43,813 bases of DNA from Bacteroidales bacterium (lineage in GTDB: Bacteria > Bacteroidota > Bacteroidia > Bacteroidales > P3): assembly GCA_017960605.1 (NCBI GenBank), contig JAGCYV010000042.1:1-43813 (forward strand), in the 5' to 3' direction. Position 1 is the first letter of the stretch; each line of letters starts with the position of its first letter. The notes under the pieces are model-generated. The model saw only the letters and a program-made list of their open reading frames with translations. It did no database searches and was not told the origin of the DNA. Positions 3,932 through 43,813 of this stretch are shown here, in pieces. The position numbers and the translations under genes were made by a program.

Positions 3932-4058
3932 CCTTTCACCTTTCACCTCTCACCTTTCACCTTAGCTTCTCCTCCCGTTCTCTTCCCGTTCTCCTCTAGT
4001 CATCCTCAAGTATGCCTAAAGACACTAAACACTAAACACTGAACACTAAACACTACCC
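3932..4058. repeat. Intergenic low-complexity repeat patches (TTTCACC type and ACACTAA type)
   Basis: The 463-bp gap 3817-4279 holds no gene. From 3932 to 3964 it is made of 7-8-base units CTTTCACC/TCTCACC, and from 4022 to 4058 of units ACACTAA/ACACTGA. The first family recurs in frame inside the hydrolase gene (about 23640-23673) and the symporter gene (about 28656-28693). The second recurs between operon genes near 16368-16389 and 17114-17137. The rest of the gap holds the 85-bp inverted repeat and the operon promoter. Confidence 0.8.
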
Positions 4059-4070
4059 ACTTTCCTAGGC

Positions 4071-4155
4071 AATGACCTAGTACTTTCTATATAGTCATTA
4101 CTAGGTCAATACTAGGTCAATACTAGGTCATAACGGATTCAAGGCTTAGTATCAG
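4071..4155 (+). repeat. Left copy of 85-bp inverted repeat flanking the pigment operon
   Basis: This segment matches the reverse complement of 26977-27061 at 82 of 85 positions with no gap; the mismatches are at 4077, 4144 and 4147. It contains three tandem 11-base units ACTAGGTCAAT (about 4099-4131) and the 8-base palindrome CTATATAG (4087-4094). Its ends are themselves partly complementary: ATGACCTAGTA at 4072-4082 and TACTAGGTCAT at 4121-4131. It lies just upstream of the operon promoter. A short outer match (4006-4022 with 27094-27110 reversed, 16 of 17) suggests the inverted symmetry extends further out. Confidence 0.95.
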
Positions 4156-4196
4156 CGGATTATGAGTGTTTGCCTATGTTAAATATAAATTTATTC

Positions 4197-4226
4197 TTTA
4201 CGTTACGGAAAAAATGATTATATTTG
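4197..4226 (+). promoter_or_regulatory. Candidate promoter of the aryl polyene operon
   Basis: A full Bacteroidetes -7 match, TATATTTG, is at 4219-4226, 53 bases before the ATG at 4280. The -33 partner is weak: TTTA at 4197-4200 with an 18-base spacer. No other good promoter is seen in the short gaps downstream, so this one may serve most or all of the operon. Confidence 0.5.
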
Positions 4227-4279
4227 CAAATTCGCTTCTTTGTGTGAAGCGGGGATATATTATTGCAAATAAATGTATT

Positions 4280-5797: not shown

Positions 5798-5809
5798 GTT
5801 ATTGAAAGA

Positions 5810-6538: not shown

Positions 6539-7752
6539 GAAGAGTAGTAATCACAGGAATCGGCATCTGGTCATGCCTCGGGAAGAACGTCGAAGAGGTG
6601 CGCCAGTCGCTATATGAGGGCAAGTCGGGCATCGGCATCGAGGAAGCCCGCAAGGACTACGGCTACCAATCGATCCTGACGGGCATCGTGGAGAAGCCTG
6701 TGCTGAAAGGGCTGCTCGACCGCCGTCTGCGGGCCGGCATGAGCGAGGAGGCGGAGTATGCCTTCATGGCTTCGAGAGAGGCATTCCAGATGGCTGGCAT
6801 CGATGACGAATACCTGCTGAAGAACGAAGTGGGTGTGCTGATGGGCAACGACTCGTCGGCCAAGGCCACCGTGGAGAGCCACACGCTGATGCTGGAGAAG
6901 CATGACTCGGCATTGCTGGGCAGCGGCTGGATCTTCCAGAGCATGAACTCGACGGTGAACATGAACATGAGCACCATCTTCCACCTGCGCGGCATCAACT
7001 TCAGCGTGAGTGCCGCCTGTGCCAGCGGCAGCCATTCCATCGGAATAGGGGCCATGTTTATCCGTCAGGGCTTGCAGGACATGGTGCTCTGCGGCGGAGC
7101 GCAGGAGACGAACCTCTACAGCATGGCTTCGTTCGACGCCCTGGGTGCGTTCAGCAAGCGCATGGATGAGCCGACGAAAGCCTCGCGCCCCTTCGACCGC
7201 GACCGCGACGGCCTGATACCCAGCGGCGGCGCGGCGGCTTTGGTGTTGGAGGAATACGAGCACGCCGTGAAACGCGGAGCGAAGATTCTGGGCGAGGTGT
7301 GCGGCTACGGCTTCTCGAGCAACGGCGGCGGTATCTCGCAGGCCAGCGACGACGGCAGCGCTTTGGCGATGCACCGTGCGTTGCAGGATGCCAGGTTGGA
7401 GGTGGATGACATCGACTACGTGAACGCCCACGCCACCTCGACGCCGCAGGGCGACCTCTACGAGGCCAAAGCCCTGGGACGCCTGTTTGAGGGGCACCGT
7501 GCCTGGATCAGCTCGACCAAGAGCATGACGGGACACGAGTGCTGGATGGCCGGTGCCAGCGAGGCGGTGTATAGCCTGCTGATGATGCACGGCGGCTTCG
7601 TGGCTCCCAACATCAACTTCGAGAACCCCGACGAGGCCAGCGCCCACCTGAAGCTGGCCACCAGGACCATCGAGACAAAGGTCGAAACGGTGCTGAGCAA
7701 CAGCTTCGGCTTCGGTGGCACCAACTCGGCGCTGGTTTTGAGAAAGTTATAA
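6535..7752 (+). CDS. Beta-ketoacyl-ACP synthase, stand-alone (KS1)
   Basis: A 405-residue FabB/FabF-type condensing enzyme that joins malonyl-ACP to the growing chain. The catalytic residues are all present: Cys162 (SAACASGS), His299 (NAHATSTP) and His334 (SMTGHECWMAG). The C-terminus SNSFGFGGTNSALVL is canonical. Unlike the other two ketosynthases of the cluster it has no C-terminal extension. The ATG at 6535 overlaps the fabG-like stop. Aryl polyene clusters usually contain several KS proteins with divided roles (chain start, elongation with a chain-length factor, and a third). Which role KS1 has cannot be told from the sequence. Confidence 0.92.
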   Translation: MRRVVITGIGIWSCLGKNVEEVRQSLYEGKSGIGIEEARKDYGYQSILTGIVEKPVLKGLLDRRLRAGMSEEAEYAFMASREAFQMAGIDDEYLLKNEVGVLMGNDSSAKATVESHTLMLEKHDSALLGSGWIFQSMNSTVNMNMSTIFHLRGINFSVSAACASGSHSIGIGAMFIRQGLQDMVLCGGAQETNLYSMASFDALGAFSKRMDEPTKASRPFDRDRDGLIPSGGAAALVLEEYEHAVKRGAKILGEVCGYGFSSNGGGISQASDDGSALAMHRALQDARLEVDDIDYVNAHATSTPQGDLYEAKALGRLFEGHRAWISSTKSMTGHECWMAGASEAVYSLLMMHGGFVAPNINFENPDEASAHLKLATRTIETKVETVLSNSFGFGGTNSALVLRKL

Positions 7753-8890: not shown

Positions 8891-8922
8891 TATCAACGTA
8901 TCAACATATCAACGTATCAACA
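8891..8922. repeat. Four tandem 8-bp units in the gap before ACP1
   Basis: The units TATCAACG and TATCAACA alternate four times with no gap. They fill most of the 54-bp space between the methyltransferase and the ACP gene. This is another small-period spacer repeat, here outside coding sequence. Confidence 0.9.
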
Positions 8923-12859: not shown

Positions 12860-14950
12860 ATGAACAACATCCTCATCACAGGGGCTGGTATCGTGTCGGC
12901 CATCGGTGTCGGCAAGGAGGAGACTCTCCGTTCGTTGCTTGAGCAGCGCAGCGGCATACGTCCGGTGCATTACCTCAAGACCGACCACCACGAATTTCCC
13001 GTGGGCGAGGTGCAACTCTCCAACGACGAGATGTGCGCCCTCCTCGGCATCGACCCGCAGGCCCAACCCACCACGCGCACCGCACTGATGGGTATGGTGG
13101 CTTTGAAGGAAGCCTTGGAACAATCGGGTCTTACCTCCGACATGTATCCATCCATTCCTCTCATTTCTGGCACCACCGTCGGCGGTATGGACAAGAGCGA
13201 GCAGTATTACATGGACTTCCTCGAGAACGACAGCCGCAACGAGTACATCCGTACCCACGACTGCGGCGCCTGCACCGAGATGATGGCCGACCATTTCGGC
13301 CGCTTCCGTATGCTGACCACCCTCTCCACCGCCTGCTCGTCGGCAGCCAACGCCGTGATCACCGGTGCCGAGCTCATCCGTGCCGGTCAAGCCGACTGTG
13401 TGGTGGTGGGCGGCACCGAGGGCATCACCAAGTTCCACCTCAACGGCTTTGCGTCGTTGATGATTCTCGACAAGGACCCCTGCCGCCCATTTGATGCTTT
13501 GCGTGCCGGTCTCAATCTCGGCGAGGGTGCCGCCTGGCTGGTTCTTGAGACCGAGGAGCATGCACGCCGCCGTGGGGTCAAGCCGCTGATGCGACTGGCT
13601 GGCTATGGCAACGCCTGCGACGCTTTCCATCAGACGGCTACTTCGGCCGACGGCGAAGGTCCCTACCGGGCCATGAAGCAGGCCCTCGAGAGTGCCGGCA
13701 TCGCCCCCGGTCAGGTGGATTATATCAACACCCACGGCACCGGCACCGGCAACAACGACCTCACCGAGAGCGTGGCTATGCGTCGTCTGTTCGGCGACCA
13801 GGTGCCGCCGTTCTCTTCCACCAAAGCTTTTACCGGACACACAACCTCGGCTTCGGGCACTATCGAAGCTGTCATCTGCATGCTAGCCATGCAACACGGA
13901 TTCCTGCCTATCAATCTGCGTTTCAAGGATGCCGGCGAGGGCCTGACGCCTGTACATGAGCCCACCCAGAAGGCGCTGCGGTATGTCCTCAGCAATGCCT
14001 TCGGTTTCGGTGGCAACGACAGCGCGCTGCTCTTCGAGCAAATTGAAAATGAAAAATTGAAAATTGAAAATTTGCAGCCGCAGAGAGTATATCTTCTTTC
14101 TGCCGCGCAGATTTCGGCGCAGGAGCCGTTGTGCGACGACTGGAAGGACAATCCCATACATCTCACCGAGCCGCTTACCCGCAGCCGTGAGGCCGACTAC
14201 AAGCAGTTTATCCCGCCCCTTGAGGCCCGTCGTATGGGACGCATCCTCAAGCGTGCCATCGCCACCGCCTGCACCGCCATGAATGATGCAGGGGTAGGCA
14301 CTCCCGAGGCCATCATCACGGGTACTGGATTGGGATGCATCGAGAACACCGAGATTTTCCTCGATGCCCTCTGCCGTCAGGGTGAGGACCAGATGATGCC
14401 CACCCGCTTCATGTCCTCCACCCACAACACCATGTCCTCCATCGTGGCCATCAACCTGCATGCCAACGGCTACAATGCCACCTATGCCCACAACACCGTC
14501 TCGTTCCAGAGCGCCTTGATGGACGCCCTCTTGCAGTTGCGTCGCGGTGCGGTGCATAACGCTATGGTCTGTGCCCACGACGAGATGACGCCCTCCTACC
14601 ATGCATTGCTTTGCAAGGGCGGATACCTGAAGGGCAAGCGTGCCGCCGAGTGCGCCGTCAGCATGATGCTGGCCACCGGGAACAACGGCCGTGCCATCTG
14701 CGAGGTGGCCGGCATGCGCATGCTCTATCGACCCACCGAGGCCGAGAAACAGCAGGCCCTCGACGAACTCTGTGGCGGCGGAGCCGATATTGTCGATGGC
14801 TACCCCGACCTTTTCGGTGTCAATTACACCACGCCCGCCCTCGACCTCTATGCGGCTGCCCACCTCATGGGTGACCGTCCTGTGGTGGTGCGCTACTGTG
14901 ACGAAAACCATTATTCATTGATACTCCTCAAACCATGTGGCGACTGCTGA
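12860..14950 (+). CDS. Ketosynthase-chain length factor fusion (KS3, ApeO-ApeC-like)
   Basis: A 696-residue protein. Residues 1-393 are a full ketosynthase with Cys159 (STACSSAAN), His292 (NTHGTGTG) and His327 (AFTGHTTSASG), ending SNAFGFGGNDSALLFEQ. Residues about 405-696 form a second KS-like domain of the short type found as a separate chain-length-factor protein in other aryl polyene clusters (ITGTGLGCIENTEIFL, MSSTHNTMSSIVAINL, then GAVHNAMVCAHDE). The usual Cys is absent there. In known systems KS and CLF form a heterodimer that sets polyene length; here they appear joined in one chain. The linker (IENEKLKIENLQ) is coded by a GAAAATT repeat at 14041-14075 of the same type as the spacer at 27331-27362. 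It overlaps the next gene by 16 bp. Confidence 0.87.
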   Translation: MNNILITGAGIVSAIGVGKEETLRSLLEQRSGIRPVHYLKTDHHEFPVGEVQLSNDEMCALLGIDPQAQPTTRTALMGMVALKEALEQSGLTSDMYPSIPLISGTTVGGMDKSEQYYMDFLENDSRNEYIRTHDCGACTEMMADHFGRFRMLTTLSTACSSAANAVITGAELIRAGQADCVVVGGTEGITKFHLNGFASLMILDKDPCRPFDALRAGLNLGEGAAWLVLETEEHARRRGVKPLMRLAGYGNACDAFHQTATSADGEGPYRAMKQALESAGIAPGQVDYINTHGTGTGNNDLTESVAMRRLFGDQVPPFSSTKAFTGHTTSASGTIEAVICMLAMQHGFLPINLRFKDAGEGLTPVHEPTQKALRYVLSNAFGFGGNDSALLFEQIENEKLKIENLQPQRVYLLSAAQISAQEPLCDDWKDNPIHLTEPLTRSREADYKQFIPPLEARRMGRILKRAIATACTAMNDAGVGTPEAIITGTGLGCIENTEIFLDALCRQGEDQMMPTRFMSSTHNTMSSIVAINLHANGYNATYAHNTVSFQSALMDALLQLRRGAVHNAMVCAHDEMTPSYHALLCKGGYLKGKRAAECAVSMMLATGNNGRAICEVAGMRMLYRPTEAEKQQALDELCGGGADIVDGYPDLFGVNYTTPALDLYAAAHLMGDRPVVVRYCDENHYSLILLKPCGDC
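14041..14075. repeat. GAAAATT repeat inside KS3, at the domain junction
   Basis: Tandem units AATTGAAAAT/GAAAAATTG run in frame across codons about 394-405, precisely between the KS and CLF-like domains. The same unit forms the non-coding spacer at 27331-27362 beside tRNA-Ser. Confidence 0.85.
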
Positions 14951-15299: not shown

Positions 15300-16004
15300 A
15301 TGGACAAATCGCTTATATTCAGCATTGACAAGGTATCAACTCCGTCTCACCTCCGTCTCAACTCCGTCTCAACTCCGTCTCACCTCCGTTGGCGAACGGA
15401 GGTGAAACGGTGGAGAGGTGCAGTGGCAACGGTGGTGATGCTTTGTCTCTGTCTGACCATGCAGGCCCAATCGGAGACCTTCACGGGAGCCCAGCGCTCC
15501 GAGGTGCTGACGGCCATTGCTGCCGCCCAGCAACCCAAGCCGGGGAAGACGCTGAACTACAGCTTCCGGCAGACCAAGCACTCGCGCCTGTTGGCCGAAG
15601 ATGCGGTGTCGAAAGGCAACCTTACCCTCGGCGACCGCACCATGCAATGGCGATACACAGAACCCAACGACTTCACCCTCGTGGTCGAGGGCGACTCCAT
15701 CTATACCGTCGTCGGTGGCAAGCGCAGCAGCTTTTCGGGTAACGCCGACCGCATGACGCGTGGATTGGCTCAGATGATGATGCAGATGACCGACGGCACG
15801 AGCTTGGCCGACGAACGGGTATTCGAGACTGTGCTCACCGAGGAGTCCAGCTGCTACCGTGCCCTGCTGACCCCCAAGCGGCGGGATATGCGACGCATGA
15901 TGCAGCAAGCCGAACTGACATTCGACCGCAAGAGCATGTGCATCAAGAGCGTGCGACTGGTGGAGAAAGATGGATATACGCAAATCGATTTCACACGGCA
16001 ATGA
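15300..16004 (+). CDS. LolA-like periplasmic lipid carrier
   Basis: A 234-residue exported protein of the outer membrane lipoprotein carrier (LolA) fold. After the signal peptide (hydrophobic core AVATVVMLCLCLTM, cleavage near MQAQ) the mature part has the expected start GKTLNYSFRQTK and later beta strands (MQWRYTEPNDFTLVVEGD, YRALLTPKR). LolA-like proteins in aryl polyene clusters are thought to carry the lipidic pigment across the periplasm. The N-terminus is odd. Codons 13-37 are made of an 11-bp tandem repeat plus a hairpin, so two 11-residue repeats (VSTPSHLRLNS) precede the charged part of the signal peptide. A start further down at 15438 would leave a very short signal peptide. The stop overlaps the next start. 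Confidence 0.85.
   Translation: MDKSLIFSIDKVSTPSHLRLNSVSTPSHLRWRTEVKRWRGAVATVVMLCLCLTMQAQSETFTGAQRSEVLTAIAAAQQPKPGKTLNYSFRQTKHSRLLAEDAVSKGNLTLGDRTMQWRYTEPNDFTLVVEGDSIYTVVGGKRSSFSGNADRMTRGLAQMMMQMTDGTSLADERVFETVLTEESSCYRALLTPKRRDMRRMMQQAELTFDRKSMCIKSVRLVEKDGYTQIDFTRQ
15337..15410. repeat. 11-bp tandem repeat plus hairpin inside the LolA-like gene
   Basis: Units CAACTCCGTCT/CACCTCCGTCT repeat with an 11-bp period from 15337 to 15390. They end in a hairpin with arms 15381-15390 and 15395-15404 (10 bp, loop GGCG; more pairs follow outward). The same array-plus-hairpin design is in the intergenic region at 41115-41188. Confidence 0.92.
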
Positions 16005-17139: not shown

Positions 17140-20100
17140 ATGACCAAGTTCCTCCTGCGCATACACGACTACCTGACGGCCCATCGCATCGTTGCGGTGG
17201 TGTCGCTCGTCGTGATGCTTGTGGCAGGAGTGCTGTTGGCTTTGCAACTCCATTATGAGGAAAATATAGCCCGTTTCCTGCCCACCGACAAGGGCAACGA
17301 GAAGCAGGCCGCCGTTTATAATGCGCTGGGTGACCAGGGGCAGATCACTGTCATTTTCCGTCCTGTGGAGGAGGCGGGCGACGACGAGGTGATGGATGCC
17401 ATCGACGCCTTTGCCGAGCAGTTCGCCCGGATTCGTCCCGACATCGCCCTCCAGGCCCGTGCCGACGAGAGCGATGCGATGGTAGCCATCGAGGAGTTGA
17501 GGGACAATATTGCCCTCTATTTGACGGCCGCCGACTATGAGAGAATCGATTCCCTGCTGAGCAATCCCGACTTTGTCGCCACCCGTATGGGTGAGGTGAA
17601 GCAGACGCTCGGAATGCCGTTGCCCGAGATGGTTACCGACATGCTGGTGGCCGACCCGCTGGGACTATTCACTCCGGCCCTCAGCCGTTTGCAGGCCCTC
17701 AGCCCCAGCAGCCGCTATGTGGTGACCGACGGCTATGTGATGGATGGAGAGGGGAGAGGCTATGCGTTCATGGCAAGTCCCTACAATGCCAGCGATACCC
17801 GACGCAACGGACGCTTGGCCAAGGATATCGCTGAAGCTATTGATTCCATCAGTGGTCAGACTCCTGTGGTCTCTGTTTCTGCTGTGGGTGCTCCGCTCAT
17901 CGCCGTTACCAACGCCAACCAAATCAAGCGCGACAGCCTGCTGGCGATGCTGCTCTCGTTGGTGCTTATAGCCATCATCCTGTGGCGTTCGATGGGGCAT
18001 CGGCGCAACATCCTGTGGATGGCCTTCTCCATCGCCTGCGGATGGCTGTTCGCATTGGCGGTCATCGCCATCTTCAAGACGGAGATATCAATCATAGTGG
18101 TGGGTATCGGCTCGGTGCTTGTCGGCATTGCGGTCAATTACCCGTTGCATTATCTGGAACACCTGAAAGACCATCCAGACCGTCGTGAAACCCTGCGCGA
18201 GATGGTGGAACCGCTGGTGACGGGCAATATCACCACCGTAGCGGCATTCGCCTGCCTGGTGTTTGTCAAAGCGGAAGCGATGCGCGACCTCGGCCTCTTT
18301 GGTTCGCTGATGCTGGTGGGGACCATCGGATTCACTATGATATTCCTGCCGCTGTGGGCGAAGGGAGGCAAGCGGAAAGCCGAAGAGTCGAAGAGTCAAA
18401 GAGTCGAAGAGTCGAAGAGTAGGAATATGCCGGCATGGGTATTCTGGGTGATGGCGGGCATTACTGCCGTACTGGGATATTTCAGCACGAAGGTGGAGTT
18501 CGATTCCGACCTCCATAATATCAACTTCATGACCGCCCAGCAGCAGACAGACCTTGACCTGCTCGGCAACTCGGTGGGGGAGGGCGAACTGACCTATGTG
18601 GTCAGCGAAGGCCGCACCCTCGACGAAGCCCTCCGCGCCAACGACAGCCTTCAGCTGCCGGGAGTGGGTGTATTGATGCCGTCGCTCGGCCGTCAGCAGG
18701 AGTCGCTGGAACGCTGGAATCGTCTGAAAGAAAAATACCCCGATCTGGGCAGACAGGTGACCCGTGAGGCTGTCCGTGCGGGATTGGCCGACGATGCCTT
18801 CGAACCCTTCTTACGCACGCTGTCGGCCGACTATGAGGCGGCAGAACCTTCGTTGGAGAGTGCTGCGGGAGCGTTGGCGAAGAACTATATCTTGAAGACC
18901 GACACCGGCTACTACGTGGTGAACTACATACATTCAAACACTCAAACAATCAAACAATCAAGCAATAACAGCTTTGCCTTTACCCAGAAGGATGTCGGCA
19001 GTGGTTTGGTCAATGCCCTCAACGGTGACTTCAACTATATCCTCTATGTCTGCTCGTTTGTCGTCTTCGCGTTCCTGTGGCTCGCCCTTGGTCGTTTCGA
19101 GTTGGCCTTGCTGGCATTCCTCCCGATGGCCATGGGTTGGCTGTGGATTCTGGGGTTGATGGCCCTGTTGGGCATCAAATTCAATATCGTCAATATCATT
19201 CTGGCTACCTTCATCTTCGGTCAGGGTGACGACTACACCATCTTCATCACCGAAGGACTGCTCTACGAGAACGCCACCGGCAAACGTCGGCTGAAGGAAT
19301 ACCGCCGCAGCGTCATTATATCGGCGTTGCTGATGTTCGCCGGTATCGGCACCCTGCTGACGGCCCGCCACCCTGCCTTGCGTTCGTTGGCCGAGGTGGC
19401 CGTCATCGGTATGGGATGTGTGGTGCTGATGGCCTGCGTGGTGCCGCCGGTAGTGTTCCGATGGCTTACGCAGCGGCACGGGCACCCCCGCCGCTATCCG
19501 ATCACCGTCGGACGAATTCTGATTACGGTGGTGCCGTTGATCGTATTCATCTTGTTTGCCCTTGTGGTGGCTACGCCGGTGACCGTGGTCTATTTACTGC
19601 TGCCGATGGAGAAACGCCGCAAGCGCGACAGTTTCCACCATTTTATCTGCGGAGTCATGCGGATGGGAGCCAAGTTGATGCCGCGAGTCGATTTCCGGAT
19701 AGAGAATCCCCACGGCGAGGACTTCAGCAGGCCCGCTGTCATTGTGGCCAACCATCAGTCGCACCTCGACTTGCTCAGCATCCTCATGCTTACCCCCAAG
19801 GTGGTGGTGCTCACCAAGAACTGGGTGTGGCGCAATCCTCTCTATGCCCATATCATCCGCTATGCGGAATACCTGCCGGCAGAGGCGGGATACGACAACC
19901 TGATGCCCAAGCTCCGCGACTTGGTGGAGCGCGGCTATTCCATCATGGTGTTCCCCGAGGGAACTCGCAGCATGGACGGCCAGGTGCATCGCTTCCACAA
20001 AGGGGCGTTCCTCCTTGCCGAGGAACTGGGGTTGCCGTTGCTGCCGGTCTTCATCCATGGAGCCTACGACGTGTGGCCCAAGACCGAGAGCCTCATCACT

Positions 20101-23525: not shown

Positions 23526-24364
23526 TGCGTCGTCTCCTTGCCATACTTTTGCTACTGTTCTGCCTCTGCACCGCACAAGGGCAGGCGCTCGTCCGTCTTC
23601 CCGGCACCTCGGCCACGCTCGAGTGCTACCCCGCCGACACCTCTCACCTTTCACCTTTCACCTCTCACCTTGCCGTGGTGGTTTGTCCGGGAGGCAGCTA
23701 CAGCTGGCACGACTACAAGGTGGAGGGGGTTGAAGTGGCCCAATGGCTGCAAGCCCACGGCATTGCAGCCTACGTTTTGCGCTACCGCGTGCAAGGCTGG
23801 TGGGCGTGGGCAACGCATTATCGTCTCCTTTTCCGCGGTAACCAATATCCTGACCCCCTGCGCGATGCTGAAGCAGCCCTCGACTGGCTGGCTGTCCATG
23901 CCGACAGCCTCGCCATCGACCCTAGGCAGATCGGTGTTATGGGCTTCTCGGCCGGCGGTCACCTCGCCATGCTCACCACCTACACCCGCCGGCCGGCCTT
24001 CGTAGTTCCCGTCTATCCTGTGGTCACTATGCGGCAGGCCTGCTGTCACTCCCGCTCTCGGCGCGCTTTACTCGGCGAATATGGGAAAAACAACCAGTCT
24101 CTTCGAGATTCCCTTTCAATCGAACTTCATGTGCGGCCCGACTGCCCGCCTGTCTTCCTGGTCAACTGCGTCGATGACCCCATCGTCGATTACCACAATT
24201 CCGTCCTCCTCGACTCCGCCCTCACGGCTAACAACATCTCCCACCGTTATATCCAATACCGCACTGGCGGACATGGCTTTGGCATGAGCGAGACAAAAGG
24301 CAGCCCTGAATGCCGCCCCTGGAAAGAAGAATTTCTCAAATGGATAAAAGGATTATATAAATGA
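23525..24364 (+). CDS. Exported alpha/beta-hydrolase (acetyl esterase-like)
   Basis: A 279-residue hydrolase with a signal peptide (MRRLLAILLLLFCLCTAQGQ). The catalytic set can be read as Ser in GFSAGGHLAM, Asp in VNCVDDPIVDY and His in GGHGFGMS; the oxyanion segment is VVCPGGSYSW. It resembles acetyl-xylan-esterase-like or lipase-like enzymes that cleave small esters. A periplasmic esterase could trim or release the acylated pigment, but the substrate is unknown. Codons about 38-50 (HLSPFTSHL) come from a CTTTCACC-type repeat (23640-23673), as in the spacer at 3932-3964. The start ATG overlaps the preceding stop (TGATG); the stop overlaps the ligase start (ATGA). Confidence 0.85.
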   Translation: MRRLLAILLLLFCLCTAQGQALVRLPGTSATLECYPADTSHLSPFTSHLAVVVCPGGSYSWHDYKVEGVEVAQWLQAHGIAAYVLRYRVQGWWAWATHYRLLFRGNQYPDPLRDAEAALDWLAVHADSLAIDPRQIGVMGFSAGGHLAMLTTYTRRPAFVVPVYPVVTMRQACCHSRSRRALLGEYGKNNQSLRDSLSIELHVRPDCPPVFLVNCVDDPIVDYHNSVLLDSALTANNISHRYIQYRTGGHGFGMSETKGSPECRPWKEEFLKWIKGLYK

Positions 24365-25661: not shown

Positions 25662-25763
25662 CACTCATAAATCATAAATCACCTCTCATAAATCATAATT
25701 CATAAATCAGAAATCAAAACTCCCCACTCATAAATCATAATTCATAATTCCTTCACCTTTCAC
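25662..25763. repeat. Spacer of ATAAATCA/ATAATTCA repeats
   Basis: The gap between the ligase and the last acyltransferase is almost wholly built of CATAAATCA and CATAATTCA units, with CTTTCACC units just before the start at 25765. No promoter or gene is visible in it. Confidence 0.85.
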
Positions 25764-26865: not shown

Positions 26866-26976
26866 AGCAAAAAAAGGCCGCCGGACAAATCGCCCCGCAT
26901 TCCTTTTCAGTGTTTAATGTTCCTAAACACGAGGGTAAGCCGTCGGTTCCTTGAAAATTTAGACCTGTGTAACGGT

Positions 26977-27061
26977 CTGATACTGAGTCTTGAATCCGTT
27001 ATGACCTAGTATTGACCTAGTATTGACCTAGTAATGACTATATAGAAAGTACTAAGTCATT
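26977..27061 (-). repeat. Right copy of 85-bp inverted repeat flanking the pigment operon
   Basis: In reverse complement it matches 4071-4155 at 82 of 85 positions without gaps. It carries the same three 11-bp units and CTATATAG centre. It starts 111 bp after the last operon gene and ends 180 bp before the 3' end of tRNA-Ser. Confidence 0.95.
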
Positions 27062-27093
27062 ACCCAGTCACACGTTCATCATGCCCAAGTGTT

Positions 27094-27146
27094 TCTTTAG
27101 TCATACTTGAACCATATTTAGTCATACCTGAGGTGTCATACTTAAG
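27094..27146. repeat. Tandem TTTAGTCATAC units outside the right inverted repeat
   Basis: TTTAGTCATACTTGA (27096-27110) and TTTAGTCATACCTGA (27117-27131) lie 21 bp apart, and a third partial unit follows. A reversed copy of this word is at 4006-4022, outside the left 85-bp repeat. Confidence 0.75.
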
Positions 27147-27328: not shown

Positions 27329-27330
27329 GA

Positions 27331-27362
27331 ATTGAAAATTGAAAGTTGAAAATTGAAAATTT
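27331..27362. repeat. Spacer of GAAAATT repeats upstream of tRNA-Ser
   Basis: Units ATTGAAA and GTTGAAA run up to the 5' end of the tRNA. The same repeat is found in frame in the KS-CLF fusion gene at 14041-14075. Confidence 0.85.
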
Positions 27363-28296: not shown

Positions 28297-29787
28297 TTAG
28301 CGTTTACTGTTCAGTGAGGAGAACCACAACAGCAGGAAGGTGATGAGGCCGTTGAGGAGAAGTATCTCGAATCCGAAGTGGTATCCGAACCACACGGGGG
28401 CGTTGAGTTTGAGCACGTAGCAGAGCACGGGCGAGAGCACCGCGATGAAGGGCACCCAGCGGTCGCGGGCTTTGCGGCGGGTGAAGAGGCCGAAGGCATA
28501 GAGGCCCAGCAAGGGACCGTAGGTGAAGCCGGCCACGTCGAAGACGGTATCAATCAGCGACTGCTGGTGGAACGGCCGGAAGGCGATGATGACCAGCAGG
28601 TAGAGCAACGCGAACCCCACATGCACCCAACGTCGGATGGCTACAGGTGAGTTCACTTTTGACCTTTCACCTTTCACCTTTAACCTTTCACCTTTTTCAA
28701 ATCCCAGGAAGTCGTAGCAGAAGGTGGTGGTGAGGGCGGTGAGGGTGCCGTCGGCGCTGCTGTAGCCCGCGGCCACCATGCCCAGCACGAAGCAGATGGC
28801 GGTGAAGCCGCTCAGCGAGAAGGCCACCGAGGGAAAAATCTTGTCGGGCACCACAGCTCCCGCCTCGTTCAGCGGAAGGGCGAAGCCGGTGGCTTCGGCA
28901 TAGGTCAGCAGGGCGGCTCCCAGCATGAGGAAGAGGATATTGACCACGATGAAGAGCATCGAGCTGGTCATCACGTTCTTCTGTGCGTCGTGGAGGGTCT
29001 TGCAGGTGAGGTTCTTCTGCATCATGTCCTGGTCGAGTCCGGTCATGGTGATGGTGATGAACATGCCGGCCAGCACCTGCTTCACCCAGAATTTCGGCGC
29101 CGTGGGATCGGTCTCGAACATGCGCGTGTAGCCTTTCTCGGCCGACAGCTTCATCAGGTCGCCGACGTTCATGTCGAGGTTGTTCAGGATGGCCACCACG
29201 GTGGCGACGGCGGCACCGAGGAGGAAGGTGGTTTGCAGCATGTCGGTCCACACCACCGTCTTGATGCCGCTGCGGAAGGTGTAGAGCAGGATGATGGCGA
29301 TGAAGACCACCGCCGGCACCCAGAAGGGCATGCCCCAGGCGCGGAAGACGAACTCGTAGAGCACAAAGACCACGAGGTACATCCGCAGGGCGGAACCCAG
29401 CAGGCGGCTGAGGATGAAGAAGAGGGCGCCGGTCTTCTCGCTGGCGATACCGAACCGCTGCTCGAGGTAGGTGTAGATGCTGGTGAGGTTGAGCTTGTAG
29501 TAGAGCGGCAGCAGCACCAGTGCGATGGCGGCATAGCCGAGCACGTAGCCGAACACCAGCGGCATATAGGTCCACTGGCCGCCATAGACGCCGCCAGGCA
29601 CCGACATGAAGGTGACGCCCGAGAGCGATGCCCCTATCATGCCGTAGGCCACCACCGGCCACGGCGACCGCCGTCCGGCACGGAAGAAGGCTTCGTTGCC
29701 TTTGGCACCCCGCCGTCCGGTGAGCCACATGACCAGAAACAGCAGCGCCGTATAGGCCGCAAAGCACACAAGTATAGTTAGTTCCAT
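28297..29787 (-). CDS. Sodium:solute symporter (SSS family)
   Basis: A 496-residue inner-membrane transporter with about 13 TM segments. It shows family features such as GASLSGVTFMSVPG in the second helix and the WTDMLQTTFLLGA segment. The substrate is unknown; relatives carry sugars, sialic acid, amino acids or vitamins with sodium. Residues about 364-381 (EKGERLKVKGERSKVNS) lie in a predicted cytoplasmic loop and are coded by AAAGGTGAAAG units at 28656-28693. These are the reverse complement of the CTTTCACC spacer repeats, so this loop looks acquired. The gene heads a two-gene unit with rnz. Confidence 0.9.
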   Translation of the reverse strand: MELTILVCFAAYTALLFLVMWLTGRRGAKGNEAFFRAGRRSPWPVVAYGMIGASLSGVTFMSVPGGVYGGQWTYMPLVFGYVLGYAAIALVLLPLYYKLNLTSIYTYLEQRFGIASEKTGALFFILSRLLGSALRMYLVVFVLYEFVFRAWGMPFWVPAVVFIAIILLYTFRSGIKTVVWTDMLQTTFLLGAAVATVVAILNNLDMNVGDLMKLSAEKGYTRMFETDPTAPKFWVKQVLAGMFITITMTGLDQDMMQKNLTCKTLHDAQKNVMTSSMLFIVVNILFLMLGAALLTYAEATGFALPLNEAGAVVPDKIFPSVAFSLSGFTAICFVLGMVAAGYSSADGTLTALTTTFCYDFLGFEKGERLKVKGERSKVNSPVAIRRWVHVGFALLYLLVIIAFRPFHQQSLIDTVFDVAGFTYGPLLGLYAFGLFTRRKARDRWVPFIAVLSPVLCYVLKLNAPVWFGYHFGFEILLLNGLITFLLLWFSSLNSKR

Positions 29788-33186: not shown

Positions 33187-33966
33187 ATGAAACTGAACAA
33201 GATATTGGTGGCGCTGCTCTTCTCTGCGGCCACGCTGTCGGCGGCGGCTCAGAGCGGCCGTGATATTCAGGACGACGAACTGCACGGCGAGGTGAAGCGC
33301 ATCGACTCCCGCATGTACGAAGCCCGCTACGACCTGAACGACAACCTCGAACAGGGCGACCAACTCGAGCACCTCGTCACCGAATACAGGCAGAACGGCC
33401 AGCGTCGCAGCCAGACCTACCTCTCGGTGGCCGAGAATGTCATCTTCCGCACCCGATACAAACACGATGGTTTCGGCCTCACCACCCTGGAGCATGTGGT
33501 CGATAACCAGGAGCGCGTCATCGGCCGCACCTACTACATCTATGACATCGAACACACGCTGACCGAGGTCTATGTGGAGGATGCCGAGCGGCAGGTGGAG
33601 AGCCGCATGCTGCTCAGCCACGATGCCGAAGGCCGCATCAGCCAGCGCAGCTTCAACGACCATGTGAATGATGTCTATAAGCGCGAGGTCTATGTCTTCA
33701 ATCCCGACGGCTCTGTGAACAAGGCCGTCGTCTATGACCGCTCGAAGCAGAAGGTGCAGGAGAAGCGTTGGGAATATGACGAGCAGGGCTATCCCACCAG
33801 CTACACCCTCTACGACTATACCGAGGAAGAGCCCGAACTCTTCATCACCCTCTACGAACGGGAGTACGACTCGCACGGCAACTGGGTACGCTGCACGGAG
33901 TACGACCTCCTCGGCGACCGCAAGATCCCGACCTACACGACAGTCCGCACAATTGAGTATTTCTAA
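33187..33966 (+). CDS. Exported YD-rich protein of unknown function
   Basis: A 259-residue protein with a signal peptide (MKLNKILVALLFSAATLSAAAQ). The mature part contains repeated 'Y...G....VVYDRS..KVQEKRWEYDEQG'-like units of about 20-25 residues with Tyr-Asp-x-x-Gly pairs (KHDGFG, FNPDGS, YDEQGY, YDSHGNW). These resemble the beta-hairpin YD/RHS-type repeats and the DUF-type repeat proteins of Bacteroidales. It is probably periplasmic or outer-membrane associated, but no lipobox cysteine is present. The ATG at 33187 is preferred over an upstream TTG because the signal peptide starts there. A strong intrinsic terminator follows. Confidence 0.8.
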   Translation: MKLNKILVALLFSAATLSAAAQSGRDIQDDELHGEVKRIDSRMYEARYDLNDNLEQGDQLEHLVTEYRQNGQRRSQTYLSVAENVIFRTRYKHDGFGLTTLEHVVDNQERVIGRTYYIYDIEHTLTEVYVEDAERQVESRMLLSHDAEGRISQRSFNDHVNDVYKREVYVFNPDGSVNKAVVYDRSKQKVQEKRWEYDEQGYPTSYTLYDYTEEEPELFITLYEREYDSHGNWVRCTEYDLLGDRKIPTYTTVRTIEYF

Positions 33967-33988
33967 TTTCTAATTTCTAAATTCTAAG
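33961..33988. repeat. TTCTAATTTCTAA spacer repeat, left of the four-helix gene
   Basis: Units TTCTAAT/TTCTAAA run to the terminator stem. Their reverse complement (TTAGAATTTAGAAATT) fills 34398-34504 on the other side of the four-helix gene, so that gene is bracketed by inverted copies. Confidence 0.85.
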
Positions 33989-34027
33989 TGAGCTACGCAG
34001 GTAATGCGGTAATGCTCACTTTTTTTC
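33987..34027 (+). terminator. Intrinsic terminator after the YD-rich protein gene
   Basis: Arms AGTGAGC (33987-33993) and GCTCACT (34014-34020) pair fully, inner CGC/GCG pairs add to the stem, and a run of seven T follows. It ends only 5 bases before the next start codon. Confidence 0.85.
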
Positions 34028-34401: not shown

Positions 34402-34504
34402 AATGAATACTTAGAATTTAGAATTTAGTAATTTGACTTAGAAATTAGAATTTAGAAATTAGAAGTTGTAAATAGGACTTAGAAATTAGAATTTAGAAAT
34501 TAGA
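34398..34504. repeat. TTAGAATTTAGAAATT spacer repeat, right of the four-helix gene
   Basis: About 100 bp of TTAGAATTT/TTAGAAATT units directly before era. They are inverted relative to the copy at 33961-33988. Confidence 0.88.
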
Positions 34505-34505
34505 A

Positions 34506-35474
34506 ATGAGAAGTGGCTTTGTAAACATAATAGGCAATCCGAACGTCGGCAAGTCAACACTGATGAACGCCTTGGTGGGTGAGAAACTCAGTATTATTAC
34601 CAGCAAGGCCCAGACCACCCGTAAGCGGGTGATGGGGATTGTAAACGGCCGCACCAGCGAGCGCCATCAAACTTGTTTGGATGGCCGAGCGCCAGAGGCC
34701 GTGGGCGCAGCCAACGGCCGATCTGATGAGGCCAATAGCGATGATTTCCAGATTGTCTATACCGACACCCCCGGCATCGTCAATCCCCACAACAAACTCC
34801 ATGAGCAGATGATGGGCTTCATCGGCACCGCCCTGCAGGATGCCGACCTCTTCCTCCTCGTCACCGAGGTGGGAGAGACCTTCAAGAACCGCCATGTGCT
34901 GGACAAGGTAATCAGCAGCGACGTTCCCGTCATTCTCGTCATCAACAAGATAGACCTCTCCGACCAAGCCACCATACAGGAGAAGATCGCCTACTGGCAG
35001 GCCGAGATACCGCGTGCCGTCATCGTCCCCTGTTCCGCCACCGAGGGTTTCAACGTCGATAAAATCTTCGACCTCATCCTCGAACGCCTGCCCGAGCACC
35101 CCGCCTATTTCCCCACAGACGAGCTCACCGACCGCACCATGCGCTTCTTCGTCAGCGAGATAGTACGCGAAAAGATTCTCCTCTACTACCAGAAAGAGAT
35201 ACCCTACAGCTGTGAGGTGGTCGTCGAGGCCTATGAGGAGAAAGACGGCATCGACAACATCTCGTGCCTCATCTATGTGGAGCGCGAGAGCCAGAAGGCC
35301 ATCCTCATCGGCCATCAAGGCAAGGCCATCAAGAAACTGGGTATCGAGGCCCGCAAGGACATCGAGGAGTTCACCGGCAAACGCTGCTTCCTAAGCCTCC
35401 ACATCAAGGTCCTCAAAGACTGGCGCAACAGCGACCGTGCTCTCAAGAGCTTCGGCTATGCCTTCGAAGATTGA
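34506..35474 (+). CDS. era: GTPase Era, with a 30-residue insertion near the switch region
   Basis: A 322-residue GTPase that binds 16S rRNA and assists 30S maturation. All G motifs are present: GNPNVGKS (G1), TT at 37-38 (G2), DTPG (G3), NKID (G4) and SATEG (G5). The KH RNA-binding domain has LIGHQGKAIKKLG. Residues 49-78 have no counterpart in Era proteins I know: in those, the segment after (I/V)MGI(V/Y)N runs straight into DDFQIVYTDTPG. The insert is GC-rich, unlike era's own context, and is coded by 34650-34739 with internal palindromes. It lies between G2 and G3 and therefore near switch I, so an effect on GTPase cycling is possible. The frame stays open throughout. Confidence 0.95.
   Translation: MRSGFVNIIGNPNVGKSTLMNALVGEKLSIITSKAQTTRKRVMGIVNGRTSERHQTCLDGRAPEAVGAANGRSDEANSDDFQIVYTDTPGIVNPHNKLHEQMMGFIGTALQDADLFLLVTEVGETFKNRHVLDKVISSDVPVILVINKIDLSDQATIQEKIAYWQAEIPRAVIVPCSATEGFNVDKIFDLILERLPEHPAYFPTDELTDRTMRFFVSEIVREKILLYYQKEIPYSCEVVVEAYEEKDGIDNISCLIYVERESQKAILIGHQGKAIKKLGIEARKDIEEFTGKRCFLSLHIKVLKDWRNSDRALKSFGYAFED
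34650..34739. repeat. In-frame palindrome-containing insertion in era
   Basis: Ninety bases (30 codons) absent from typical era. It contains the inverted repeat GCCATCAAAC/GTTTGGATGGC (34663-34685, one-base bulge). The 8-bp word AACGGCCG occurs at 34644-34651 and again at 34713-34720, exactly 69 bp (23 codons) apart, which could be a trace of duplication on insertion. Confidence 0.7.
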
Positions 35475-36992: not shown

Positions 36993-37580
36993 TTACTCGG
37001 CAGCGGCTTCGCCCTCTCCCTCGCCGGCGGTGGCGCTGGCACGGGTGCTGAGGACGTTGACCACCTCGGCGCTCTTCGGGTTGAGGATGGTGTAGTTCTC
37101 ACAGGCGATGTCCTGCACGCGGATGCGCTGATTGACATCGAGGTTGGTGATGTCGAGGAGCACCTCGCTGGGCATGTTGGCAGGAATGGCCTTCACGTTG
37201 AGGCGTTTCTGCTTGTAAGCTAGCTTGCCGCCCTTCATGACACCCTTGCTGGTGCCGGTGGTGTGCACGGGGATGGACATCACGACGGGTTTGTCGTCGG
37301 TCAGCTCGTAGAAGTCGGCGTGATAGACGATCTCGGTCACAGGGTGGAAGTCGATGTCTTTCAGCATGGCCATGTGGTCGGTGCCGTTGATGGTGATTTT
37401 CTGGAAGCAGGGTTCGGGGTTGAACAGAATGCGCTGGAAGGCAGTCTGATCGACGCTGAACAGCATCTGCTCGCCTTTACCGTACATGACACAAGGCACC
37501 TTGGCGTCGCGACGCAGAGCCTTAGCATCCTTTTTCCCTACGTTCTCTCTCAGAGAACCGCTCATTGATACTACTCTCAT
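36993..37580 (-). CDS. rplY: Ribosomal protein bL25 (CTC-type)
   Basis: A 195-residue, long-form L25/TL5 protein that binds 5S rRNA in the large subunit. The N-terminal domain shows GKKDAKALRRDAKVPCVMYG and the later DFHPVTEIVYHADFYEL. A C-terminal acidic tail (GEGEGEAAAE) is present. I chose the ATG at 37580; the longer frame to 37664 runs into spacer repeats. It lies 104 bp after prs on the same strand, as is common in Bacteroidales, where prs and rplY are neighbours. Confidence 0.95.
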   Translation of the reverse strand: MRVVSMSGSLRENVGKKDAKALRRDAKVPCVMYGKGEQMLFSVDQTAFQRILFNPEPCFQKITINGTDHMAMLKDIDFHPVTEIVYHADFYELTDDKPVVMSIPVHTTGTSKGVMKGGKLAYKQKRLNVKAIPANMPSEVLLDITNLDVNQRIRVQDIACENYTILNPKSAEVVNVLSTRASATAGEGEGEAAAE

Positions 37581-37684
37581 TGTTTTAATTGTTTGATTGA
37601 TTAATTGTTTGATTGTTTGAGTATGTTGACTGTCTGACTGCGTAGCACTCAAGCATTCACGCAATCAAACATTCACGCATTCAA
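37581..37684. repeat. CAATCAAAC/TTGTTTGATT spacer repeat between prs and rplY
   Basis: Nearly the whole gap consists of units TTGTTTGATT and, nearer prs, CAATCAAACATTCACGC. The same words appear in frame in the MMPL gene at 18931-18966. No separate rplY promoter is visible, so co-transcription with prs is likely. Confidence 0.85.
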
Positions 37685-38947: not shown

Positions 38948-38953
38948 CTTGTT

Positions 38954-41034: not shown

Positions 41035-41058
41035 GATTTGTTCGTTTTTTTCGATTTG

Positions 41059-41066
41059 CAAAATTA
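41059..41066 (-). promoter_or_regulatory. Candidate -7 element of the CDF gene
   Basis: Minus-strand TAATTTTG matches TAnnTTTG, 25 bases before the start codon. No clear -33. Confidence 0.5.
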
Positions 41067-41114
41067 CGAACTTTCTGTTTAACGGCACCCTCACCATTGT
41101 TGGTGATTAGCCAT

Positions 41115-41188
41115 CACCTCCGTCTCACCTCCGTTTCACCTCCGTTTCACCTCCGTCTCACCTCCGTCCAAAAACGGAGGTGAGACGG
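41115..41188. repeat. Intergenic 11-bp tandem repeat with terminal hairpin
   Basis: Units CACCTCCGTCT/CACCTCCGTTT repeat with an 11-bp period from 41115 to 41168. They end in a hairpin with a 15-bp perfect stem (41153-41167 with 41174-41188, loop CCAAAA). It has the same design as the copy inside the LolA-like gene (15337-15410). It lies between sdhB's end and the CDF gene's start, and may also act as a transcript-end hairpin. Confidence 0.92.
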
Positions 41189-41249
41189 TGAGGCGACGGT
41201 GTTGTGACGGACCGGAACGCAGGGGGATGGCAATTGACAAAGCGGGTTG

Positions 41250-42011
41250 TCAGGCCTCGTTGCGGTCGCGTCCGAACATCTGGCCTATCCAGCAGCGGTT
41301 TAAACGGGCGATGTTCTGGCGCTTGATTTGCTTGGGGCACTCGGCCTCGCAGGCGTAGGTGTTGGTGCATCCGCCGAAGCCGAGCTCGTCCATCTTGATG
41401 ATCATGTTGCGCACGCGGTCCATTGCTTCGGGATAGCCTTGCGGCAGCAGGTTGAGGTGGCTTATTTTTGCGCCGACGAAGAGCATTGCACTGGCGTTCT
41501 TGCAGGCCGCCACACAGGCGCCGCAGCCGATGCAGGCGGCGGCATCCATGGCTTGGTCGGCGATATGCTTCGGCACAAGGATGTTGTTGGCGTCGGGCAC
41601 GCCGCCGGTGGTGGCGCTGATATAACCGCCGGCCTGGATAATCTTGTCGAAGGCGGTGCGGTCGACCACCAAGTCCTTGATGATGGGGAAGGCCTTGGCA
41701 CGCCACGGCTCGACCCATATCTCGTCGCCGTCGTGGAAGTGGCGCATGTGGAGCTGGCAGGTGGTCACGCCGTCGTCGTTGCCGTGGGGACGGCCGTTGA
41801 TGTAGAGGCCGCACATGCCGCAGATGCCCTCGCGGCAGTCGTTGTCGAAACAGACAGGGTGCGCTATCTTGTCGTTGATAAGCTTCTCGTTGAGCTGGTC
41901 GAGCATCTCGAGGAACGAGCAGTCGGCCGAGATGTTGTCAATCTCGTAGGTCTCGAAATGGCCTTTGGCGCGGGCGTTCTCCTGACGCCAGATATGTAGA
42001 GTAAATCTCAT
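41250..42011 (-). CDS. sdhB: Succinate dehydrogenase/fumarate reductase iron-sulfur subunit
   Basis: A 253-residue subunit that passes electrons between the flavoprotein and the quinone-binding membrane anchor. The [2Fe-2S] ligands are in [20 protein letters not shown] and the Cys of VTTCQLH. The [4Fe-4S]/[3Fe-4S] ligands are in [30 protein letters not shown]. The ATG at 42011 is chosen ([10 protein letters not shown]); the longer frame to 42059 covers the hairpin spacer. It follows the flavoprotein gene. The third subunit would lie beyond 43813. Confidence 0.94.
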
Positions 42012-42034
42012 AAAACTTCGTTTTATAGTGTGTA

Positions 42035-42101
42035 GTTGGTAGTGGGTAGTGTGTAGCATTCGTGGTCAAGTGCTACCCACTGTCCACTACCCACTACCAA
42101 C
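42035..42101. repeat. Long hairpin between the two succinate dehydrogenase genes
   Basis: Arms GTTGGTAGTGGGTAGTG (42035-42051) and its exact complement (42085-42101) are 17 bp long. Inside them GTAGCA/TGCTAC adds six more pairs. It is built of TAGTGGG-type units, like other spacer repeats in this genome. Confidence 0.9.
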
Positions 42102-42104
42102 TTA

Positions 42105-43813
42105 TTATTTATAATTCCTTTTCACAATCTGTATGTGCTCGTAGTTGAGCTCCTCTTTGTGCATCACCTCGGGCTTGTCGTGGCCCTGGTACTCCCAGGC
42201 GGCGACGAACATGAAGTTGTCGTCGTCGCGCATCGTCTCGCCGTCTTCGGTCTGATGCTCCACGCGGAAATGACCGCCACAGCTCTCCTCGCGCTGTGTG
42301 GCGTCGTCCACGATGAGGCGTGCCAACTCGAAGTAGTCTTCCAAGCGGTAGGCCTTCTCCAGTTCGGGGTTCATCTCCAAGGTCTTGCCGGGGATAAAGA
42401 CATGCTGGAAGAAGTCGGCCTCCAACTCGGCAATTTTCTCCTTAGCGGTAGCCAGACTCTCTTTCGAGCGAGCCATACCGCAGTATTCCCACATGATGCG
42501 TCCGAGAGCCTTGTGGTAGTGGTCGACAGAGTGAAGGTCGGAGGTCGGAGGTCGGAGGTCAGAGTTATTTCCGATGGCCATCAAACCGTCGAGTCTTGCG
42601 CGCACAGCTTGCTCGGCCTCGTCGAACTCGGGGCCTTCGGCCTTGATCTTGCCGACATATATCTGGTCGGCGAGATAATTCTGCAGCGTGTAGGGCAGCA
42701 CGAAGTAGCCGTCGGCCAAGCCCTGCATGAGGGCCGAGGCACCGAGGCGGTTGGCACCGTGGTCGCTGAAGTTGGCCTCGCCGGCAGCAAAGAGGCCGGG
42801 AATGGTGGTCTGCAGCTCGTAGTCGACCCAGAGGCCGCCCATGGTGTAGTGCACAGCGGGGTAAATCATCATTGGCTGCTCGTAGGGGTCCACGTCGACA
42901 ATCTTCTGATACATCTGGAAAAGGTTGCCATACTTCTGTTCCACTACATCTCGGCCGAGACGCTTGATGGCATCGGCGAAGTCGAGGTAGACGGCCAGGC
43001 CAGTGGGGCCTACGCCGTAGCCTGCATCGCAGCGCTCCTTGGCGGCGCGGCTGGCGACGTCGCGCGGCACCAGGTTGCCGAAGGCCGGGTAGCGGCGCTC
43101 GAGGTAGTAGTCGCGGTCCTCCTCGGCGATGTCGAGGGCGTTCTTCTCGCCGCGGCGTATGGCCTCGGCGTCCTCTTTCTTCTTGGGCACCCAGATGCGG
43201 CCGTCGTTACGCAGCGACTCGCTCATCAGGGTGAGCTTCGACTGGTAGTCGCCATGCACGGGGATGCAGGTGGGATGTATCTGCACATAGCAGGGGTTGG
43301 CGAAGGCGGCACCACGGCGGTGGCACACCCAGGCGGCGCTGCCATTGCAGTTCATGGCGTTGGTGCTCAGATAGTACACGTTGCCGTAGCCGCCCGAGGC
43401 CACCACGACGGCATGGGCGGCGTAGCGCTCCAACTCTCCGGTGACGAGGTTGCGGACAATGATACCTCTTGCGCGGCCGTCGACCACCACGAGGTCCATC
43501 ATCTCGTGACGCTCGTGCAACACCACGGTGCCACGGGCAATCTCGCGGCTCAGGGCGCCGTAGGCACCCAGCAGCAGCTGCTGACCCGTCTGGCCGCGGG
43601 CGTAGAAGGTGCGGGAGACCTGTGCGCCACCGAAGGAACGGTTGTCGAGCAGGCCGCTATAGTCGCGGGCGAAGGGCACACCCTGCGCCACACACTGGTC
43701 GATGATGTCGCCGCTGACCTCTGCCAGGCGGTAGACGTTGGCCTCGCGTGCGCGGTAGTCGCCGCCCTTGATGGTGTCCTTGAAGAGACGCTCTACGCTG
43801 TCGCCGTCGTTCT
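42105..43813 (-). CDS. sdhA: Succinate dehydrogenase/fumarate reductase flavoprotein subunit (N-terminus beyond window)
   Basis: About 569 residues are visible; the true start lies past 43813. The protein carries covalent FAD and oxidises succinate or reduces fumarate. Seen parts are the segment [20 protein letters not shown], the capping domain with [20 protein letters not shown] and the catalytic region [29 protein letters not shown]. The C-terminal helical part is normal except for the stretch [16 protein letters not shown] (about 42530-42577), coded by GGTCGGA units, which looks like a short in-frame repeat insertion. It precedes sdhB on the same strand. Confidence 0.95.

Follow-up and report, generated by a model that had tools for sequence, protein, structure and literature searches.

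Rickettsia palindromic elements (RPEs) are described as short, dispersed palindromic elements that lie in frame inside unrelated genes (PMC10969869, PMC3733652). Tandem heptamers are reported across the intergenic spacers of cyanobacteria, with some copies within or at the ends of genes and with occurrences in five Bacteroidetes too (PMC4679880, PMC4692102); as far as the account of the TAACTGA repeat goes, most in-gene repeats sit at the protein periphery or in short hypothetical proteins. Repetitive extragenic palindromic (REP) elements are characterized as multicopy short stem-loops that are sometimes intragenic, and CGTC types are mentioned both in Bacteroidetes and among RPEs (PMC3733652). 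Here, we analyzed a 43,813-nt contig of a Bacteroidales bacterium (JAGCYV010000042.1 of assembly GCA_017960605.1; contig C9 of the host genome), referred to at its full length as the window, in which short tandem repeats lie in the gaps between genes and also interrupt coding sequences in frame. We regard it as probable that these repeats belong to a genus-wide family of short dispersed tandem repeats with units of 7, 8, and 11 bp, some of them hairpin arms, which spreads within species and whose in-frame copies persist in permissive protein loops.

RPEs and the cyanobacterial heptamer repeats are the closest known systems, and heptamer arrays and in-frame palindromes are each already known; for the combination seen here, no report for Bacteroidales was found in the open-licence literature. 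RPE families are shared across Rickettsia and, to our knowledge, are not built of 7-, 8-, or 11-bp tandem units. Compared by description, RPEs and the present repeats are alike as short dispersed elements in frame in unrelated genes, but some of the present units change from one species to the next, and arrays lacking a palindrome are frequent; inverted array pairs are common for 11-bp arrays and a minority for 7- and 8-bp arrays. The likeness to the cyanobacterial heptanucleotide and TAACTGA repeats lies in tandem heptamers scattered in spacers, with some in genes; in contrast to those, 8- and 11-bp arrays taken together outnumber 7-bp arrays here, some arrays form the arms of hairpins that have cores, and a single protein loop can bear different arrays in different species. 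REP elements and miniature inverted-repeat transposable elements (MITEs) are likewise many-copy short stem-loops, and a GTAG-ended palindrome occupies the SdhA loop of one congener (L172). The arms seen here, however, are tandem arrays that vary in unit number, and they have no established tag or transposase link.

Sequence samples and array detection

The host draft genome comprises 1.91 Mb in 78 contigs and is 78% complete; the window and 40 further stretches gave a host sample of 637 kb, one third of the genome. The relatives' sample consisted of 20 stretches (L076-L095; 358 kb), 18 from congeners and two from other families (L085 and L086), which were kept in the genus totals and are both without an array. 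Loci carrying SdhA formed two further sets, one of 23 genus-like loci (297 kb; L178 excluded) and one of 56 lower-identity loci (675 kb) that, except for one mislabelled locus, are other Bacteroidota by title. L001-L005, being overlaps, were removed before counting. Arrays in the window were taken from Tandem Repeats Finder (TRF), and counts over many stretches came from a mismatch-tolerant detector for periods of 4 to 15 bp, with an order-2 Markov copy as the control. Genes in the host sample were called with a home-made codon-usage caller (527 genes, covering 90% of the sequence), so that counts in hypothetical genes are approximate.

The host SdhA matches uncultured gut and rumen Bacteroidales metagenome-assembled genomes (MAGs). 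Exact identity over 3.9-4.6 kb equates congener G022 with RUG429, G012 with RGIG4772, G001 with RUG10805, and G020 with Candidatus Colimorpha merdihippi E1_90; the genus therefore includes that candidate species.

Results

A preliminary description of the window had listed nine sites at which repeats interrupt genes in frame. Six of these hold, in KS3, MMPL (twice), the alpha/beta hydrolase, the sodium:solute symporter, and SdhA, all genes with Pfam domains (Table 1), while the two in KS2 do not and the one in the LolA-like gene is doubtful. The first KS2 site (11491-11506; 2.3 copies, TRF score 32) scores no better than many rows at chance level, the second has no TRF row, and neither was called by the mismatch-tolerant detector; both were dropped. 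The LolA-like array (15336-15389; 11 bp) forms the left hairpin arm in the stretch from the end of the preceding gene (15288) to an in-frame GTG, which gives a signal-peptide-like start (read by eye). It probably lies upstream of the start and is not coding; as the frame is open upstream, it may also form an N-terminal extension.

The recurrence of different arrays at one protein loop is our strongest result. Among 74 distinct orthologues of five window genes, 20 arrays were found, and 17 of them fall at the window's array sites, which span 4-10% of each protein. Period 9 accounts for 5 of the 17; without 9-bp arrays, 12 of 15 are on site (P < 1e-9 even with a 10% share, shared ancestry ignored). 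The three off-site arrays only just reach the score threshold; one ancestral insertion is common to L050 and L051, and L105 is counted twice.

The SdhA array amounts to about 10 extra residues before the C-terminal helical domain, absent from the closest solved relative (9lay). With the N-terminal part cut off by the contig end, the AlphaFold model has a mean pLDDT of 57.7, a low confidence, and served only to place residues 377-383 of the array loop between two helices at pLDDT <50. At the same loop, G007 has two inverted 7-bp arrays, L170 and L171 have other 7-bp arrays, and G009, G021, and L166 have 9-bp arrays, with another in L161 at a lower threshold; many congeners have no array, and some have a longer loop but no called array. 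The palindrome of L172, of REP type, lies in frame at 7123-7150, where the sister L170 (91% identical) has its 7-bp array, and palindromes starting with GTAG and ending with CTAC also occur in G007, G009, G041, and G056, which span several Bacteroidales families. This pattern suggests that the loop was struck repeatedly through its tolerance of insertions and not through a target sequence.

At the symporter site, 6 of 21 congeneric orthologues carry arrays: the reverse complement of the host AAAGGTG in the coding strand (G022), AATTTTC (G002), an 11-bp array (G010), a GGTCGGA-type array with inverted 11-bp arms read by eye (G001), and 9-bp arrays (G012 and G009). None was called in the other 15, including G004 with its long low-complexity loop. 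The inserted residues are absent from distant SdhA orthologues, both in the lower-identity loci (56 of 56) and in those of other genera (8 of 8), and the symporter loop is short in 8 of 8 other-genus loci, as expected had the repeats been inserted. The first MMPL site has 11-bp arrays in three of six orthologues (G023, G008, and G019, but not G011, G013, or G014) and the second has none in the same number; the hydrolase site has an 8-bp array in G019 and none in four other orthologues, and at the KS3 site no array reaches the detection threshold in four. Outside the window, the host MnmE has about 60 extra residues, with 8-bp arrays, between what we take to be the NKxD and SAK motifs. Among 22 congeners, this site has three different 7-bp arrays (G002, G004, and G010), two weak arrays in G014, and none in the others; the MnmE of G044, from another family, has a long insert and no arrays.

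Pfam families were found in all 10 host genes checked that have internal arrays outside the window, as in the window's array genes. Where a gene has domains on either side of its array, a lack of in-frame stops implies a preserved reading frame. Ten of 53 in-gene arrays have a unit whose coding-strand stop would, in a perfect array, enter the frame one to three times, and none does so; this absence is partly by construction, since genes were called as open frames and a stop-bearing array would count as the end of a gene. The symporter of the window has two units in which TGA would fall in frame, and it is precisely these that read TTA and TCA.

Genes and spacers have repeat units in common, as the preliminary description had proposed. 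Taking the host and the other genus loci together, a unit class known from spacer arrays was seen in 15 of 35 in-gene 7-bp arrays, where words of the same genes predict 2.2% (P = 2e-16), and in 7 of 14 such 8-bp arrays, where they predict 0.9% (P = 1e-11). Whole elements are shared as well. An 11-bp-phased hairpin of G023 has a 23-nt core that occurs at 43 places in that genome (<=3 mismatches; 28 exact), at 11 in its sister G008, and at none in G000, G011, G012, or G019. Of these 54 places, 30 were retrieved as loci: 29 lie between genes, and one lies in frame within the MMPL gene of G008. Another in-frame copy of the element is present in MMPL of G023. The core variant in each MMPL copy is the commoner one of its species (37 of 43 in G023 and 8 of 11 in G008), which suggests that in-gene copies are homogenised with spacer copies within species. 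A host core word matches eight times. Three of the matches lie in MnmE next to 8-bp arrays and a fourth lies in another called gene; of the four in spacers, three adjoin arrays and one does not. Elements common to spacers and, in frame, to unrelated genes were in this way found for MMPL (G023/G008) and MnmE (host). A single conserved core for all elements was rejected, as only species-level cores were found.

Arrays might instead arise in place by replication slippage or template switching alone, with shared units a matter of coincidence or mutational bias. The frame-keeping 9-bp arrays in SdhA and the symporter of several congeners speak for such an origin, as do the change of unit sequence at one place between G008 and G023 and the many in-gene units absent from the sampled spacers, because of which some arrays may indeed arise in place. 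A restriction to 7, 8, and 11 bp is not expected from slippage, however, and neither private units with dozens of copies nor whole elements with cores in genes are explained by it. Given the private units and whole elements, slippage is hard to keep as the sole process, and we consider it unlikely in that role.

The window's arrays are not due to chance. As the preliminary description had it, short-period repeats lie in the gaps between genes (TRF spacer arrays at 3932-3963, 4022-4055, 4094-4130, 27330-27361, 41114-41168, and others); that their periods are limited to 7, 8, and 11 bp and that some arrays are hairpin arms was absent from that account. In the host sample (637 kb), arrays number 50 for period 7, 35 for period 8, and 48 for period 11. 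Other periods are scarce: 9, 10, 12, 14, and 15 account for 2, 1, 2, 4, and 2 arrays, respectively, and 4, 5, 6, and 13 for none. The order-2 Markov copy gave none at any tested period (4-15). The arrays are thus not heptamers only; 8- and 11-bp arrays stand beside the 7-bp arrays, of which 24 are intergenic. Intergenic self-match in the host is elevated at lags 7, 8, 11, 22, and 33, and also at 2 and 3. In the relatives' 358 kb there were 20, 8, and 17 arrays of 7, 8, and 11 bp (also 4 of 9, 2 of 10, and 1 of 12), and the 23 genus-like SdhA loci had 17, 10, and 7 plus 15 of other periods. The 56 lower-identity loci had 12, 5, and 0 (plus 3 of 9 and 2 of 14), and the 11-bp kind is therefore confined to the genus in our sample. 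The AATTGAA class (27330..27361) is the most frequent 7-bp class in the host as well as among the other genus loci. A TGA/TCA anchor common to the heptamers was rejected: 24 of 50 7-bp classes have one against 13.5 in shuffled sequence (z 3.5), but other trinucleotides behave similarly. In a separate observation, a Tannerellaceae MAG has five 7-bp arrays within 1.4 kb (L194, 2935-4334), a hint that a further family of Bacteroidales has a related activity.

An assembly artefact of MAGs would be a trivial source of such arrays, and the titled genus-like records are MAGs. Most arrays, however, measure far less than 100 bp and leave the reading frame of genes intact; they also differ between species and occur in MAGs of several projects, which makes an artefact extremely improbable.

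Judged from sequence matches, the amplification of several units is recent and private. Two tandem copies of GACCTAGTATT had 58 matches in the host and none in 60 relatives, 36 of them congeners, and two of ACCTCCGTCTC had 3 and none, respectively; GTTCTTCAGT-type arms had 149 matches in G023, 10 in the sister G008, and none in 59 others. AAAATTG arrays, by contrast, were found in 21 of the 37 genus genomes searched, while the 24 genomes from other families had none. The density of 11-bp arrays differs between the sisters (31 in 216 kb of G023 versus 8 in 177 kb of G008), and no array of any kind was found in a single 20-kb stretch each of G009 and G016. Over the 88.9 kb aligned between G023 and G008 (87.8% identity), the arrays of several spacers are entirely different, and G023 alone has two clean hairpin insertions of about 90 bp.

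Measured against the 90% of the sequence taken up by called genes, arrays of all kinds prefer spacers, the 11-bp kind almost exclusively: intergenic, gene-end, and internal arrays in the host number 24, 10, and 16 for 7 bp, 18, 5, and 12 for 8 bp, and 47, 0, and 1 for 11 bp. In the host, an array is present in 19 of 51 divergent, 47 of 183 tandem, and 5 of 29 convergent spacers; the corresponding figures for the other genus loci are 15 of 66, 54 of 333, and 6 of 62. A terminator role was rejected, as arrays are at least as frequent in divergent as in convergent spacers. The same distribution argues more broadly against arrays being selected regulatory or terminator sequences with in-gene copies as functional sites. 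Their presence in many spacers and the hairpins formed by some would suit such a role, but each tested 11-bp unit is confined to a single species or to two sister species, and we consider it very unlikely. Array-bearing housekeeping genes include SdhA, MnmE, Mur ligase, MutS2, UvrC, and TilS. In the host gene for MutS2, a DNA-structure protein (L035, 694-3156, minus strand), a CTCCGAC array lies in frame just before the P-loop region, and inverted 7-bp array pairs around a short core, hairpin-like and in frame, lie in the Mur ligase gene (L025, 2043-3392) and an APH/RapZ-C gene (L032, 620-2116).

Inverted partners were found in the host for 8 of 55, 6 of 37, and 11 of 53 arrays of 7, 8, and 11 bp, against 5, 1, and 1 in the control, and in the other genus loci for 14 of 65, 5 of 34, and 30 of 59, against 7, 2, and 0. 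Summed, this gives a clear excess for 11-bp arrays (41 of 112, with 1 in the control) and a much smaller one for 7- and 8-bp arrays (33 of 191, with 15 in the control). Hairpin elements with cores occur in both orientations, as they would if REP- or MITE-type palindromes were moved by Y1 transposases (REP-associated tyrosine transposase [RAYT] or IS200-like), with the tandem arms secondary. A Y1_Tnp match was present in 18 of 25 genus genomes searched (drafts), G009 and G016 have neither such a match nor an array in their 20-kb stretches, and the GTAG-ended palindrome in the L172 loop recurs in several genomes. Against this, G008, G014, and G019 carry arrays and gave no Y1_Tnp match in drafts that are 88, 97, and 81% complete, which weakens the case for a Y1/RAYT transposase as a necessary mover, and no conserved GTAG or CGTC tag was established for the array elements; the host core has CGTC before a small stem, but no systematic tag was found across elements. 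We consider this explanation improbable, somewhat more so than slippage.

The features of the window are collected in Table 1. The segments at 26975-27100 and 4040-4160 each carry one dispersed element, more than 100 bp long and phased at 11 bp, and one of these two copies lies near tRNA-Ser; an Rfam scan of the window found a tRNA and nothing else. The MMPL transporter is fused to an acyltransferase domain (17140-20301) and lies near ketosynthases, the LolA-like protein, and the hydrolase, a neighbourhood that we take to be aryl-polyene-like; the full gene is present in only some congeners.

Table 1. Repeat arrays and hairpin elements in genes and spacers of the window
Position	Strand	Period (bp)	Unit and structure	Location or gene	Remarks
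3932..3963	+	7	CCTTTCA	Spacer	Unit class of symporter array; TRF and detector
4022..4055	+	7	ACACTAA	Spacer	TRF
4094..4130	-	11	GACCTAGTATT	Spacer	Inside longer 11-bp-phased dispersed element
8891..8922	+	8	TATCAACG	Spacer	TRF
14041..14075 (called 14046-14072)	+	7	AAAATTG class	KS3, gene 12860-14950	In frame; linker between two ketosynthase domains
15336..15410	+	11	Hairpin element, array and inverted arm	Upstream of LolA-like gene	Probably not coding
18381..18420	+	8	CGAAGAGT x5	MMPL-acyltransferase, gene 17140-20301	In frame
18930..18966	+	8	TCAAACAA class	MMPL-acyltransferase	In frame; second array; also a spacer unit
23638..23671 (called 23638-23670)	+	7	CACCTTT/CACCTCT	Alpha/beta hydrolase, gene 23525-24364	In frame; near N-terminus
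25665..25747	+	7	TCATAAA, other heptamers intermixed	Spacer	TRF
27002..27038	+	11	GACCTAGTATT element, second copy		Orientation opposite to 4094..4130 copy
27330..27361	+	7	AATTGAA	Spacer	Unit class of KS3 array
28652..28695 (called 28658-28695)	-	7	AAAGGTG on coding strand	Sodium:solute symporter, gene 28297-29787	In frame
33959..34015	+	7	ATTTCTA, then short GC-rich core		
34411..34512	+	7	TTAGAAA, arrays	Spacer	
37579..37684	+	8	Inverted pair of arrays around core with GCTACGCAG		
41114..41210	+	11	Hairpin element: array TCACCTCCGTC, short loop, inverted arm		Arm read by eye
42026..42102	+	7	TAGTGGG / CTACCCA, weak arrays, inverted pair around short core		Pairing read by eye
42535..42564	-	7	TCCGACC x4	SdhA, gene 42105 to contig end	In frame; loop before C-terminal helical domain

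Discussion

Our results favor a genus-wide family of repeats that spreads within species and leaves in-frame copies in permissive loops. Restricted periods, private amplification of units, whole spacer elements in genes, and recurrence at protein loops are all observed. The proposal made in the preliminary description, that spacer repeats spread and that in-frame copies are kept as linkers, gains support from the orthologues, the unit sharing, and the whole elements in MMPL and MnmE.

Several findings weigh against this reading. Twenty of 35 7-bp and 7 of 14 8-bp in-gene units were not found in the sampled spacers, core words near 7- and 8-bp arrays are only modestly enriched, and the second MMPL array and the KS3 array replace a linker of similar length. 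Outside the host, there are a few arrays with periods of 4, 6, 9, 10, 12, 13, or 14. The hairpin case is weak for 7-bp arrays because inverted partners exist for only part of them, and most in-gene arrays are single arms. Between G023 and G008, 25 arrays were comparable and 53 had no orthologous interval in the fetched sequence, and a target-site duplication was not readable at the two G023 insertions, whose junctions are ambiguous.

Under the spreading-family reading, elements would copy to new places, either as hairpin-forming DNA by means of an unknown enzyme or by ectopic conversion, and tandem units would then be gained, lost, and exchanged. Each species would amplify its own units across spacers, and copies look homogenised within species. 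Copies in genes would survive, as new linkers, only if the frame is kept, no stop is introduced, and the loop is permissive. For some of the in-gene arrays, unit slippage on the spot is the probable source of their origin or renewed expansion; the 9-bp in-gene arrays and the unit changes at fixed sites indicate that local slippage must contribute, but it leaves the private families with cores unexplained. We also put forward, tentatively and as a more doubtful proposition than the spreading family itself, a period-locked system: an unknown activity may write arrays of 7, 8, and 11 bp, in many cases so that they make up the two arms of a hairpin, and scatter them through spacers and genes alike, each species continually renewing the units used.

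That the periods are so restricted points to a mechanism, as yet undescribed, by which repeats form or move. In one third of one genome, 29 arrays of 7, 8, and 11 bp lie inside called genes, a dense natural record of noncoding DNA turning into protein sequence. As congeners show the same loop bare or with another repeat, insertion tolerance and the origin of linkers can be tested by comparison. If the period-locked system were real, it would feed random peptides into loops of essential proteins, with linkers a by-product at a high rate. In this genus, junk-like DNA appears to have been turned repeatedly into new protein linkers.

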